Shown: piece by piece, positions 40,490-55,801 of the stretch
How positions within the stretch are numbered: the stretch's first letter is position 1
Layout of the letters: each line of letters opens with the position of its first letter
NCBI RefSeq assembly: GCF_000331285.1
Contig: NZ_ANFX01000012.1
Location: 62,001-126,000 of the forward strand
DNA length: 64,000 nt
Reading direction: 5' to 3'
DNA from: Porphyrobacter sp. AAP82
Lineage (GTDB): Bacteria; Pseudomonadota; Alphaproteobacteria; Sphingomonadales; Sphingomonadaceae
Position numbers and translations under genes: made by a program
Notes under the pieces: model-generated
What the model was told of the DNA's origin: nothing
The model's input: the letters and a program-made list of their open reading frames with translations, nothing else
Database searches by the model: none

Positions 40490-41713
40490 ATGAGCAAGTC
40501 GCAGGAAATTGTCGCAGTACGATCAGATTACCGACGTGAAACTGCCATGAAATCGACAGAATTACGCCTGATTGACGCATTGCTCGACATGTGGGCCGGA
40601 ATGCCGATCGACCAGATCTCCGCCCGCGCGCTGGTGCACGAGGCGCATTCGGCGCAGGCGGCGATCCATTATCACTTTGGCGATATGGAACGTTTGTATG
40701 CGGCCGCATCGGCAGCGGCACTGACCCAGGCAGAGGGGTGGATGGCAGAACGGCTGGCAGCGCTTGCGCCGCTCGCGCAGGTGGCAGTCACGCCCGCCTT
40801 GCAGTGCGCGGTCATCAGCGCCACCATCGCCGATTGGGCCGTGTTCCAGCGCCCTCTCGCCATGGCCGCGCGCCATGCGCCGGGGCCGCAATGGGAGCGC
40901 AGCCACCGCGCGTTCTGGACCCGGCTCGCCGCTCTGATCGGCCTCGGCGATCATGCCGATACGCTCGCCTGCTACGCGCATGGCGAGGGGGCGCGGCACC
41001 TTCTCGTCTGGAATCCGGTGCTCGACCGCGCACTGCTGGAGGAGACCACCGCCGCGCTCGTCACCTGGCTCGCCGCAAGGCGCTTCGGGGACGAGGGCGT
41101 GCGCATGGTGCACCGCACGCTGGCCCGCGCCGACTACCGCGAGCCGCTGCATCCGGGCGCGGGCGAGCGTGCGGGAATAGCCGAGGCGGCGGCCCATTTG
41201 CTGGCCGCGCAGGGGCACGCAGGGGTAACCTTCCGCGCCGTCGCCGCGCGCGCCGGGGTGACGCTGGGCAAGGTCGTCCACCTCGTCGGCACCAAGAGCC
41301 AGTTGCTCGCCCTCGCGCTCCACCGGCTCTACGAGCGCGAGGCGCTGGGGGGCGATCCGGAACAGTTCCAGGCCCAGCGCTTCGCGCCGCAGGCCATGCT
41401 CGCGATGGTGCTCGAGGCGGTCCTCGCCGGGAGCCAGCCGGTGCTCGCGGCCTATCACGAGATCGAGCGGGCGATTTACAATGGTGCCGATCATGCCCCG
41501 TTGCGCGGTGTGGTGCGGGCGATGGAGGATCCGAGCGGGACCTGGGCGCTCACCCAGCTCATGGGCGGGCAGGTGCCGACCGCCTCGCTGGTTGCGGCCT
41601 TCTCGGCGATCCTGAGGGGCATCGGCCACCGCGCCGTCCATGCTGCCGATCCGCCCGAGGCCCTGCGCGCTGCGGCACAGGCTGCGCTGCGCCCGTTCCT
41701 CGCGCCCGCATGA
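40490..41713 (+). CDS. TetR-family regulator with two tandem TetR modules
   Basis: The 407-residue protein contains two TetR-like units. The first HTH is at about 25-70 (IDQISARALVHEA..AIHYHFG); the second at about 235-285 (VTFRAVAARAGVTLGKVVHLVGTK). Each is followed by a helical ligand-type domain. Usual TetR proteins are near 200 residues, so this looks like an in-frame duplication or fusion. It is divergent from the TonB receptor operon and probably controls it. Start is uncertain between ATG at 40490 (GAAGGTG upstream) and ATG at 40547. It ends at a strong bidirectional terminator shared with gdhA. Confidence 0.85.
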   Translation: MSKSQEIVAVRSDYRRETAMKSTELRLIDALLDMWAGMPIDQISARALVHEAHSAQAAIHYHFGDMERLYAAASAAALTQAEGWMAERLAALAPLAQVAVTPALQCAVISATIADWAVFQRPLAMAARHAPGPQWERSHRAFWTRLAALIGLGDHADTLACYAHGEGARHLLVWNPVLDRALLEETTAALVTWLAARRFGDEGVRMVHRTLARADYREPLHPGAGERAGIAEAAAHLLAAQGHAGVTFRAVAARAGVTLGKVVHLVGTKSQLLALALHRLYEREALGGDPEQFQAQRFAPQAMLAMVLEAVLAGSQPVLAAYHEIERAIYNGADHAPLRGVVRAMEDPSGTWALTQLMGGQVPTASLVAAFSAILRGIGHRAVHAADPPEALRAAAQAALRPFLAPA

Positions 41714-41752
41714 AAAAGGGGCCCCGCACCCGGCCGGGTGCGGGGCCCTTTT
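41714..41752. terminator. Bidirectional rho-independent terminator
   Basis: An almost perfect hairpin of about 16 GC-rich pairs, with one bulged G, has AAAA on its 5' side and TTTT on its 3' side. It begins at the TetR stop codon and ends before the gdhA stop on the other strand, so it serves both converging genes. Confidence 0.92.
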
Positions 41753-41770
41753 GGCGGGCCGGTTCCAGGC

Positions 41771-53616: not shown

Positions 53617-54309
53617 ATGAAAATGAAGCGAATTCTGATGCTTGGCGGCGCCTTGCTGGCGCTCGCCGCGACGCCTGCCATGGCTGATGACGGCAACGAG
53701 AGCGATCGTGCCGGCGATATCCAGATCAAGGTGCTCGGCACCTATGTCGCGCCCGACGGGGCGATCACCGACATCACCGTCAATCTGCCGGGCCTGCCTG
53801 CCACGACCCAGACCAAGGCCAACGACAATGTGACGCCCACAATCGCGATCGAATGGTTCGTGACCGACAATGTCTCGATCGAGACCATCGCCGGGATCAC
53901 CCAGCACGATGTCGATGCGACCGCCGGGCTTGCCGCAGGGGCCGAGCTGGTCTCGGACGCCAAGCTGATCCCGGCCACGGTGACCGCGAAGGTTCACTTC
54001 GACCTCGGCGGCGTCAAGCCCTATGTCGGCGCAGGGCCGGCGCTGTTCCTGTGGGTCGGCGATGATCCGGGTGCGGCGACCGTGCCGCTGGGCGTGACCG
54101 AGACCAACCTGTCGAATGAACTCGGCCTCGCGCTACAGGCGGGGATCGATGTGCCGGTCGGCGACAAGGGCTTCGGCCTCAGCCTCGATGTGAAGCGCTA
54201 TTTCATCGACACCACCGCGCGCTGGTACGTTGGCAACACGCTGGCGATCGAGACCGAACACCAGCTCGATCCCTGGGTGATCAGCGCAGGGATCGCCTAC
54301 CGCTTCTGA
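53617..54309 (+). CDS. ompW: OmpW family outer-membrane protein
   Basis: A 230-residue protein with a signal peptide (ends PAMA) and an eight-stranded barrel pattern, including GDIQIKVLGTYVAP, the central KPYVGAGPA strand and a C-terminal IAYRF ending in Phe. GAGGA precedes the ATG. OmpW forms a narrow channel for small hydrophobic molecules and is FNR-controlled in enterobacteria. The shared FNR box upstream fits that pattern. It is convergent with dcaP across the parS palindrome. Confidence 0.92.
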   Translation: MKMKRILMLGGALLALAATPAMADDGNESDRAGDIQIKVLGTYVAPDGAITDITVNLPGLPATTQTKANDNVTPTIAIEWFVTDNVSIETIAGITQHDVDATAGLAAGAELVSDAKLIPATVTAKVHFDLGGVKPYVGAGPALFLWVGDDPGAATVPLGVTETNLSNELGLALQAGIDVPVGDKGFGLSLDVKRYFIDTTARWYVGNTLAIETEHQLDPWVISAGIAYRF

Positions 54310-54330: not shown

Positions 54331-54368
54331 CAAAATGGCAATGTTTCACGTGAAACATTGCCATTTTG
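54331..54368. other. parS centromere site in a 38-bp perfect palindrome
   Basis: Positions 54342-54357 read TGTTTCACGTGAAACA, an exact match to the ParB-binding parS 16-mer. It is extended outward to a perfect 38-bp palindrome (arms continue as CAAAATGGCAA and TTGCCATTTTG). Located between the stops of convergent ompW and dcaP, it could also act as a bidirectional terminator because the outer arms give A4 and T4 tracts. ParB loading at such sites organises origin-proximal DNA in alphaproteobacteria. Confidence 0.9.
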
Positions 54369-54391: not shown

Positions 54392-55801
54392 TCAGAAATT
54401 GTAGCGGGTCGAAATCATCATCCGCCTGAGATCCCCCGTCCGCCCGTCTTCCAGAGAGCGCTCGGCATAGAGCAGTTCGATCCCGATATCGAGCGGGTCG
54501 ACCGGGGTCCAGATGAGGTTGACGAGCGCGTTCCAGCTCTCGTCGGTGACCTGCCGGGTCGTCAGCATGACCGGGTTATCGGCCTTGAAATAGGAGGCCG
54601 CCACGCTCGATCGCAGCCGCGTGCTCCAGCCGTGCTGGTAAGCGGCAAAGCCCGACCAGGTGAAGATCGGATCGAGCTTGCCGGTGGCGGTCACCGCCGC
54701 GTCGTTGACGATGTTGAGCCCGATATAGCGCCCGAGGCCATCGCCTGCCGTCGCCATGAAGCGCAGGTCGTCATGCGCACCGACAATGATCTTGCCCGAC
54801 AGGCTGAGCCCATAGCCCAGCGCGCTGTCGCTGCCCGTCCCGAAATCGTCGTCCGAGACCTTGAGGGTCCGCCCGATCCCCGCCAGCGACAGCGAGCCCC
54901 AGGGCTTGGCAAGATTGTAACGCACCACCACATCGGGGATGGTATCATCGCCCGCCATGATCCGCGCCCCGCTGCGGGTGGTGACGGTGGTCTCGGGCTG
55001 TTCGAGCGCGATCTGCCAACCGTTCTTGCTGTAGCGGATCATCGGCTGCCGATCGAACACAGTTCCCGGTGTTACGCCAATGAAATCAAGGCTATCCGGC
55101 AAAGCGGCGATGTTCTGGAAGGTCGACCATGCCTGACCGAAAAGCCAGTCATCATAGGTGATGAAGGCCTGGCGCAGGCGCGGGACATAGGAATTGGTGG
55201 TCCGCTCGTCGCCCCCGTCGGTGACGTTGAAATCCATCTCGATATGCGAATTGAGCGTATGCCCGGCGCCGACATCGGTGGCGGTCTTGAGGATGAAGCG
55301 GGTCTGGCGCGCCGAATAGTCGGTGTCATATCCCGAATCCGTGCCTCCCACCGGGATCAGCGCCGGGATCAGGAAGTCGCGCCCGATCGAATTGTCGGGG
55401 ATCTGCCCGCCGCTGGTCGCCTGCACCAGCGCATCGAGCTTGACGTAGCCGGCATAGCCGACTGTGGTCTTGCCGATGCGGAAGCCCTTGTCTTCCTGGG
55501 CTTGGGGCACCGCGATTTGCGCGGCGAGTTCGGCCTGGCGATCCTTGAGATCGCGGGTCGCAGCGAGCAGCGCGGTGCTCTGCTCGCGTACCGCCGCCTG
55601 CTCGGCGCGGATCGCCGCATCGCCCTCGGCCTGGCTGGACTGGTCGGCATCGAGCCGCGCGATCAGCCCCTCGACCAGCTTCTCGAGCCGGTCGAGCCGT
55701 GCATTGACGCTCTGTTCCTGCGCCAGCGCCGGAGCGGACGTCAGCACGCTTGCTGCCAGCAGTGCCGCGCGCAAGGCACGGGCCATTCCCGATAGGACCA
55801 T
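54392..55801 (-). CDS. DcaP family trimeric outer-membrane channel
   Basis: The 469-residue protein has a signal peptide ending PALAQ, an N-terminal coiled-coil (about 38-95) predicted to trimerise in the periplasm, and a barrel (about 100-469) ending ISTRYNF. DcaP-type porins take up small anionic compounds such as dicarboxylates. The chosen ATG has GGGAAAG about 5 nt upstream; MARAL, five residues later, is an alternative. It is divergent from acs, so it may serve entry of short carboxylates for the acetate module. Confidence 0.9.
   Translation of the reverse strand: MVLSGMARALRAALLAASVLTSAPALAQEQSVNARLDRLEKLVEGLIARLDADQSSQAEGDAAIRAEQAAVREQSTALLAATRDLKDRQAELAAQIAVPQAQEDKGFRIGKTTVGYAGYVKLDALVQATSGGQIPDNSIGRDFLIPALIPVGGTDSGYDTDYSARQTRFILKTATDVGAGHTLNSHIEMDFNVTDGGDERTTNSYVPRLRQAFITYDDWLFGQAWSTFQNIAALPDSLDFIGVTPGTVFDRQPMIRYSKNGWQIALEQPETTVTTRSGARIMAGDDTIPDVVVRYNLAKPWGSLSLAGIGRTLKVSDDDFGTGSDSALGYGLSLSGKIIVGAHDDLRFMATAGDGLGRYIGLNIVNDAAVTATGKLDPIFTWSGFAAYQHGWSTRLRSSVAASYFKADNPVMLTTRQVTDESWNALVNLIWTPVDPLDIGIELLYAERSLEDGRTGDLRRMMISTRYNF

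Follow-up and report, generated by a model that had tools for sequence, protein, structure and literature searches.

The window, by which is meant the whole 64-kb stretch of DNA analysed (G000:C12:62001-126000), comes from an assembly of 2.9 Mb in 52 contigs. Within it the porin genes ompW and dcaP are convergent, and between their stop codons sits a perfect palindrome of 38 bp (Table 1). This is by a wide margin the longest perfect palindrome of the window and, by our own arithmetic, a 19-bp perfect palindrome would be expected by chance only about 2e-6 times per 64 kb at 68% GC. Its core, TGTTTCACGTGAAACA, has no other match in the 64 kb, even when three mismatches are allowed. The original prediction had described such a palindrome between ompW and dcaP, with an exact parS core and arms running 11 bp further on each side without mismatch, and in this it was accurate. 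A more ordinary hairpin, a 36-nt imperfect inverted repeat (75%), lies near gene ends at 41698-41769.

Table 1. Features of the ompW/dcaP locus and of the parS cluster in the same genome (coordinates are those of the window unless preceded by a contig)
Feature	Coordinates	Strand	Remarks
ompW (OmpW family porin)	53617-54309	+	Pfam PF03922, E 6e-46; stop codon ends at 54309
Perfect palindrome, 38 bp	54331-54368	.	two 19-nt arms, 100% complementary, 0 spacer
Outer 11-bp arms of the palindrome	54331-54341 and 54358-54368		pairing, not sequence, kept across species
Exact 16-bp parS word TGTTTCACGTGAAACA, predicted ParB-binding site	54342-54357	.	0 mismatches; kept at the orthologous place in relatives
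dcaP-like outer membrane porin gene (DcaP)	54392-55789	-	PF19577, E 6e-20; stop codon 54392-54394; start codon approximate
parA and parB	C5:36904-38711		directly beside the parS cluster
Ori-proximal parS cluster	C5:38780-43656		7 copies in and beside rsmG, mnmG and mnmE

The genome from which the window comes has 16 matches to the core when one mismatch is allowed, seven of them in 5 kb of contig C5 and nine scattered, while the reversed pattern, itself palindromic, was found once. As had been predicted, parAB lie outside the window, both genes being on C5. Some of the C5 copies fall within coding sequence, where they are seen as MFHVKH peptides, and the seven together are the ordinary ori-proximal centromere of this genome. 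The palindrome extends to no more than 22 bp in cluster copies, against 38 bp at the window copy. Several of the nine dispersed sites are at gene starts. At three of these (L009, L010 and L011) the parS word overlaps or touches a predicted gene start rather than a gene end, and ParB, if bound there, could influence expression. At some dispersed sites (L011, L014, L137, L167 and L171, i.e. C15:19605 and C33:5868 of this genome and orthologues) the parS word overlaps a direct repeat, GTTC-N7-GTTC/T, near gene starts or ends; this repeat resembles the alphaproteobacterial LexA box.

Behind ompW, at a distance of 28-186 bp, or directly behind dcaP, a parS word or one-base variant is found in a number of relatives, namely E. 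oryzae, E. donghaensis, E. colymbi, Porphyrobacter IPPAS B-1204, Erythrobacter MSM4 and WG, several MAGs and the genomes G003, G011, G034 and G039. The site is kept in at least nine relatives, and over 15 orthologous sequences the 16-bp core is nearly invariant; it is absent from this locus in Altererythrobacter, Qipengyuania and other relatives with few parS words. Among the relatives that have both loci on one contig, the dcaP/ompW site or gene lies 895 kb from parB in G003, 825 kb in G022 (on the ompW side), 897 kb in G001, 772 kb in G026, 801 kb in G018, 803 kb in G004 and 600 kb in G021. The suggestion that the window might be origin-proximal did not hold, since in every such relative checked the orthologous site or gene was 0.6-0.9 Mb from parB. 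By synteny with these relatives, the window's own assembly being fragmented, the window is therefore probably mid-arm, and the site is not near oriC or parAB, a position that is usual for parS though not strictly defining.

Across 41 genomes of the genus the number of copies of TGTTYCACGTGRAACA was 1-5 in about half and 7-59 in the other half, figures that may fall short of the true number in draft genomes; the reversed control was found in none of the 41. A survey of 397 genomes of the family gave 0-4 parS words in nearly all, the exceptions being this clade, the genus g95 (G140, G201, G250, G288, G322 and G353, with 5-13 per genome) and three single genomes. In a tree of ParB, a branch with support of 100/98, the longest inner branch (0.35), separates the 19 high-parS genomes with a usable ParB from the rest. 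The best reading of these phylogenetic data is that the expansion had a single origin in the Erythrobacter/Porphyrobacter clade. Two other alphaproteobacteria (G808 and G626; L251-L266) carry 154 exact parS words in 0.9 Mb and 79 in 1.8 Mb. In the former these are mostly TGTTCCACGTGGAACA among the matches listed, often in an ACATAAA...TTTATGT setting, and are scattered as well as being at contig ends; in the latter some are in tandem with a 37-bp spacing. Both are apparently independent expansions of a different form.

The two relatives assembled as one contig allow the whole chromosome to be considered. G003 (3.09 Mb) has 54 sites, 46 of them outside the cluster, and their distances from the cluster do not differ from uniform (KS P 0.33); G022 (2.98 Mb) has 55, with 47 outside. 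Dispersed sites are never closer together than 8.3 kb in G003 (P 0.003) and 11.6 kb in G022 (P 1e-4), and in G022 they are spread more evenly than random sites would be (CV 0.74, P 0.02). Most lie between genes, and they favour convergent intergenic gaps, which, with a crude GC-position gene caller and a background taken from the window's own genome, contain 21/46 sites in G003 (P 7e-21) and 24/47 in G022 (P 3e-25), compared with 2.8% of random positions. The parS word accounts for 34 of the 92 perfect 16-bp palindromes in 1.6 Mb of G022, the next commonest being seen twice. Many copies scattered uniformly round the chromosome, if not bound by ParB, had been put forward as the mark of an ordinary palindromic terminator repeat. 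Uniform scatter is indeed what both complete relatives have, but it does not carry that meaning here, since all the copies have the parS word in common and its sequence changes jointly with that of the ori cluster. A search for a dif site with an E. coli-like pattern found none. Whether the loss of SMC lets distant sites be tolerated was also asked, and a motif scan of 1.6 of the 2.98 Mb of G022 found no Smc-like gene.

The joint change is seen in G022, where 52 of the 55 sites, cluster and dispersed alike, are TGTTCCACGTGGAACA, while 52 of the 54 in G003 are TGTTTCACGTGAAACA and the other high-parS genomes have 0-2 copies of the C/G form TGTTCCACGTGGAACA. By neighbouring gene and geometry, 28 of the 46 dispersed sites of G003 match a dispersed site of G022, and it follows from these common loci that the same symmetric double substitution took place at dozens of inherited loci and in the ori cluster. 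Dispersed and ori-cluster sites are therefore under a common sequence constraint, as expected if all are parS. Exactly one ParB match (E<1e-6, a limit that may miss very distant paralogues) was found in each of nine high-parS genomes (G000, G001, G003, G011, G016, G032, G034, G035 and G039); G022 has two additional, distant ParB-like proteins (E 1.6e-11 and 7e-7). The best explanation, and the simplest reading, would be that a single ParB reads the cluster and the dispersed sites. Positions 205/206 of the recognition helix (numbered as in the window genome's own ParB) are M/M in the clade, M/H in G022 and L-I-T/Q in the low group, the H at 206 being confined to G022. Matching by motif equates them with residues 179/180 of C. 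crescentus ParB, and a role in specificity has been reported for the first of these, 179 (PMC7383237). The clade and G022 residues are suggestive of a tie between ParB and the change in its site. For the window site itself, the 16-bp palindrome TGTTNCACGTGNAACA is present without mismatch and parA and parB are in the same genome, and the exact core, the parAB genes and the co-evolution of dispersed and ori-cluster sites together support its predicted identity as parS.

The arms of the palindrome behave differently from its core. Over the 15 sequences the outer pairs (9-19) vary, yet they pair in 129 of 165 cells compared with 38-69 (about 35%) when slid, and several outer-arm positions show three or four standard pair types. 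Given a nearly invariant core and covarying outer pairs, it can be concluded from these alignments that the core is constrained by its letters and the arms by their pairing. The palindrome folds with -24.8 kcal/mol (z -7), so that the ompW/dcaP locus has a stable stem-loop with conserved pairing between convergent genes, which is what a terminator would be expected to have. All this would also suit a palindrome that is mainly a bidirectional terminator for ompW and dcaP and that contains a parS word by happenstance or was built round one. This seems improbable, as the core letters are kept exactly while the arms change, the stem is followed on either strand by a run of only four T, a terminator scan made no call at the palindrome, arm pairing at the other dispersed sites is 36% against about 29% when slid, and terminators would not be expected to switch their core together with the ori cluster. 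The original proposal that one element might work as both centromere and bidirectional terminator survives in part, since the arms are covarying and stable, but at this locus only; the short T run and the lack of a terminator call count against it, as does the finding that dispersed sites in general are without long arms. A terminator role is plausible for the ompW/dcaP locus only, because the window copy lacks the repeat array described below and has long covarying arms. Terminators were also considered as the explanation of the dispersed set as a whole and rejected, arms pairing no better than background and array orientation being independent of transcription.

Two or more units of an 11-bp direct repeat flank parS on one side at 33 dispersed sites in G003 and 40 in G022, the two genomes from which, with scattered loci of others, the array statistics were drawn. 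The consensus of the unit is GGGGGTCTRRA, with GGGGGTCTAGA/AAG in G022 and GGGGGTCTGGA in G003. Its G-rich strand points outward in 73/75 cases, the step from unit to unit is 11 bp in 131/164 and the first unit starts mostly 12, 23 or 34 bp past the core, with a phase of 0-2 mod 11 in 66/73; judging by these spacings, array and parS share a helical register. Of the 78 array units in 1.6 Mb of G022, 51 were within 150 bp of a parS word, compared with 0.5 expected. No array was found at the ori-cluster sites, nor at those dispersed sites that were examined in the window's own genome, and beyond about 20 bp there is no conserved sequence on the side of parS opposite the array. The array side was identical in 19/19 orthologous pairs between G003 and G022, while the likeness of the array letters was 0.42 in orthologous pairs and 0.40 between unrelated sites; the comparison indicates that register and side are kept while the letters turn over. 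The register could reflect one copied ancestral element. Two of five orphan arrays in 1.6 Mb of G022 (G022:C1:967912-967945 and 1325416-1325438) adjoin half of a parS word (GTGGAACA) or a parS with one mismatch (TGTTCCACATGGAACA), and are probably decayed elements. Array orientation bears no relation to transcription, and a KOPS-like polarity was rejected, orientation being independent of replichore (Fisher P 0.30 and 0.75). Rfam gave no match at the elements, its sole match being the tmRNA gene in L172. E. colymbi, WG and several others have the array at ompW/dcaP, and the window, E. oryzae, E. donghaensis and MSM4 are without it there. In the window the ompW stop and the parS core are just 32 bp apart, compared with 120-186 bp in array-bearing relatives, and it appears from this spacing that the array was probably deleted there, a long hairpin now being in its place.

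The composite form of these elements raises the possibility of a mobile or REP-like repeat carrying parS, of which the dispersed sites would be copies, passively kept and homogenised by conversion, with no chromosomal role. One-sided composites with a fixed register, a common spacer tendency and an array in about 40 copies, and array variants specific to a lineage, would fit such a repeat, and a check for REP or MITE sequence beyond the palindrome found array and spacer in common in G003 and G022 and neither in the window copy. Such an origin for the set is nevertheless unlikely, since 28 loci and all 19 array sides are kept between the two genomes despite array letters near background, nearly all cores are letter-perfect, the sites keep a minimum spacing without clustering, and the other side of parS has no conserved flank. 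It is very unlikely that the dispersed sites are read by a second DNA-binding protein of parS-like specificity, acting in nucleoid occlusion in the manner of Noc. There is a precedent in B. subtilis Noc, a relative of ParB whose 16-bp site is two positions off parS (PMC7383237), but G003, G011 and the window's own genome have one ParB match only, the recognition-helix SRS motif retains the ParB-type arginine (numbering from PMC7383237), and the sites are the parS word and not NBS, where a Noc system would call for a paralogue with Noc-type residues together with the NBS word. Exclusion from the terminus, also considered, was absent in G022 and slight and non-significant in G003. That the window palindrome is a product of chance with no connection to ParB is scarcely credible, having been refuted already by its orthologous conservation, and the genome-wide enrichment of parS argues against it as well.

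The window site is thus probably a functional parS, belonging to a chromosome-wide set of predicted ParB-nucleation sites that arose once in the clade on top of an ordinary ori cluster. A more specific reading, which is put forward tentatively, is that of a distributed centromere in which some 46 conserved composite elements, each a parS with a phased 11-bp array read by a putative partner, may load ParB along both arms and organise the chromosome, site and ParB specificity having changed together. On the main reading, ParB most likely nucleates at each dispersed site as at any parS and spreads locally; the chromosome would then have, in place of one centromere, many ParB zones spaced some 65 kb apart, with a minimum distance of 8-12 kb. 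The spreading zone of ParB in Caulobacter is about 10 kb per cluster (PMC5815017), a size that the minimum spacing of 8.3-11.6 kb fits. These zones would probably anchor, compact or segregate the chromosome arms, and SMC loading is a possible role. The array may bind a second protein or confine the sliding of ParB to one side; most simply it would offer a second protein several sites in line, on the helix face that ParB occupies, with DNA curvature or a G-quadruplex as alternatives. At the window locus the array would have been lost and the palindrome lengthened into a hairpin that may help to end the ompW and dcaP transcripts.

Known parS sites are close to ori; a range of one to 20 per genome is cited in PMC10197239, and Streptomyces coelicolor and Listeria innocua have 22 near ori (PMC5815017). 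The accepted view is that they must stay in the origin region, since distant sites disturb segregation (PMC5815017, PMC5098823), and a clade with about 46 exact sites round the chromosome, up to about 50 copies against 2-3 in relatives, conflicts with this rule. C. crescentus tolerates extra parS clusters no farther than about 500 kb from the native one (PMC5815017), and P. aeruginosa parS is effective only in a zone of about 650 kb round oriC (PMC5098823); by these limits 46 active sites at a distance should do harm. This counts against the main reading, as do the small number of dispersed sites in the window's own genome, the lack of an array at those examined there, the placing of several at gene starts and the two additional ParB-like proteins of G022. 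The high clade and its low relatives amount to a natural experiment on the number and placing of centromere sites that a bacterium can use, and the G022 switch provides a ready example of joint change in a DNA-binding protein and in dozens of its sites. A putative partner protein of ParB is suggested by the phased 11-bp array. No prior report of a dispersed set of full parS sites was found in the literature searched, which is not proof of absence.

The chromosomal ParABS systems of C. crescentus, P. aeruginosa and B. subtilis share with this clade the 16-bp palindrome, the position of parAB beside rsmG-mnmG and a normal ori-proximal cluster partly within coding genes, but the clade adds dozens of exact intergenic sites all round the chromosome. 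Nucleoid occlusion by Noc at NBS and by SlmA at SBS involves tens of dispersed sites per protein. The likeness lies in those numbers, whereas most members of the clade that were checked have no ParB paralogue, the site is parS and G022 has no terminus gap. The parS of plasmid P1 consists of box A heptamers and box B hexamers, and so likewise joins a centromere word to a second repeated motif; the elements of the clade are chromosomal, and their phased 11-bp array, of unrelated sequence, is on one side and at dispersed sites only. A parallel in extent is P. aeruginosa, whose ParB binds scattered half-parS over the whole chromosome (PMC10419367). The contacts there are 7-bp half sites in their hundreds, whereas the sites of the clade are complete, conserved 16-bp words at fixed positions.
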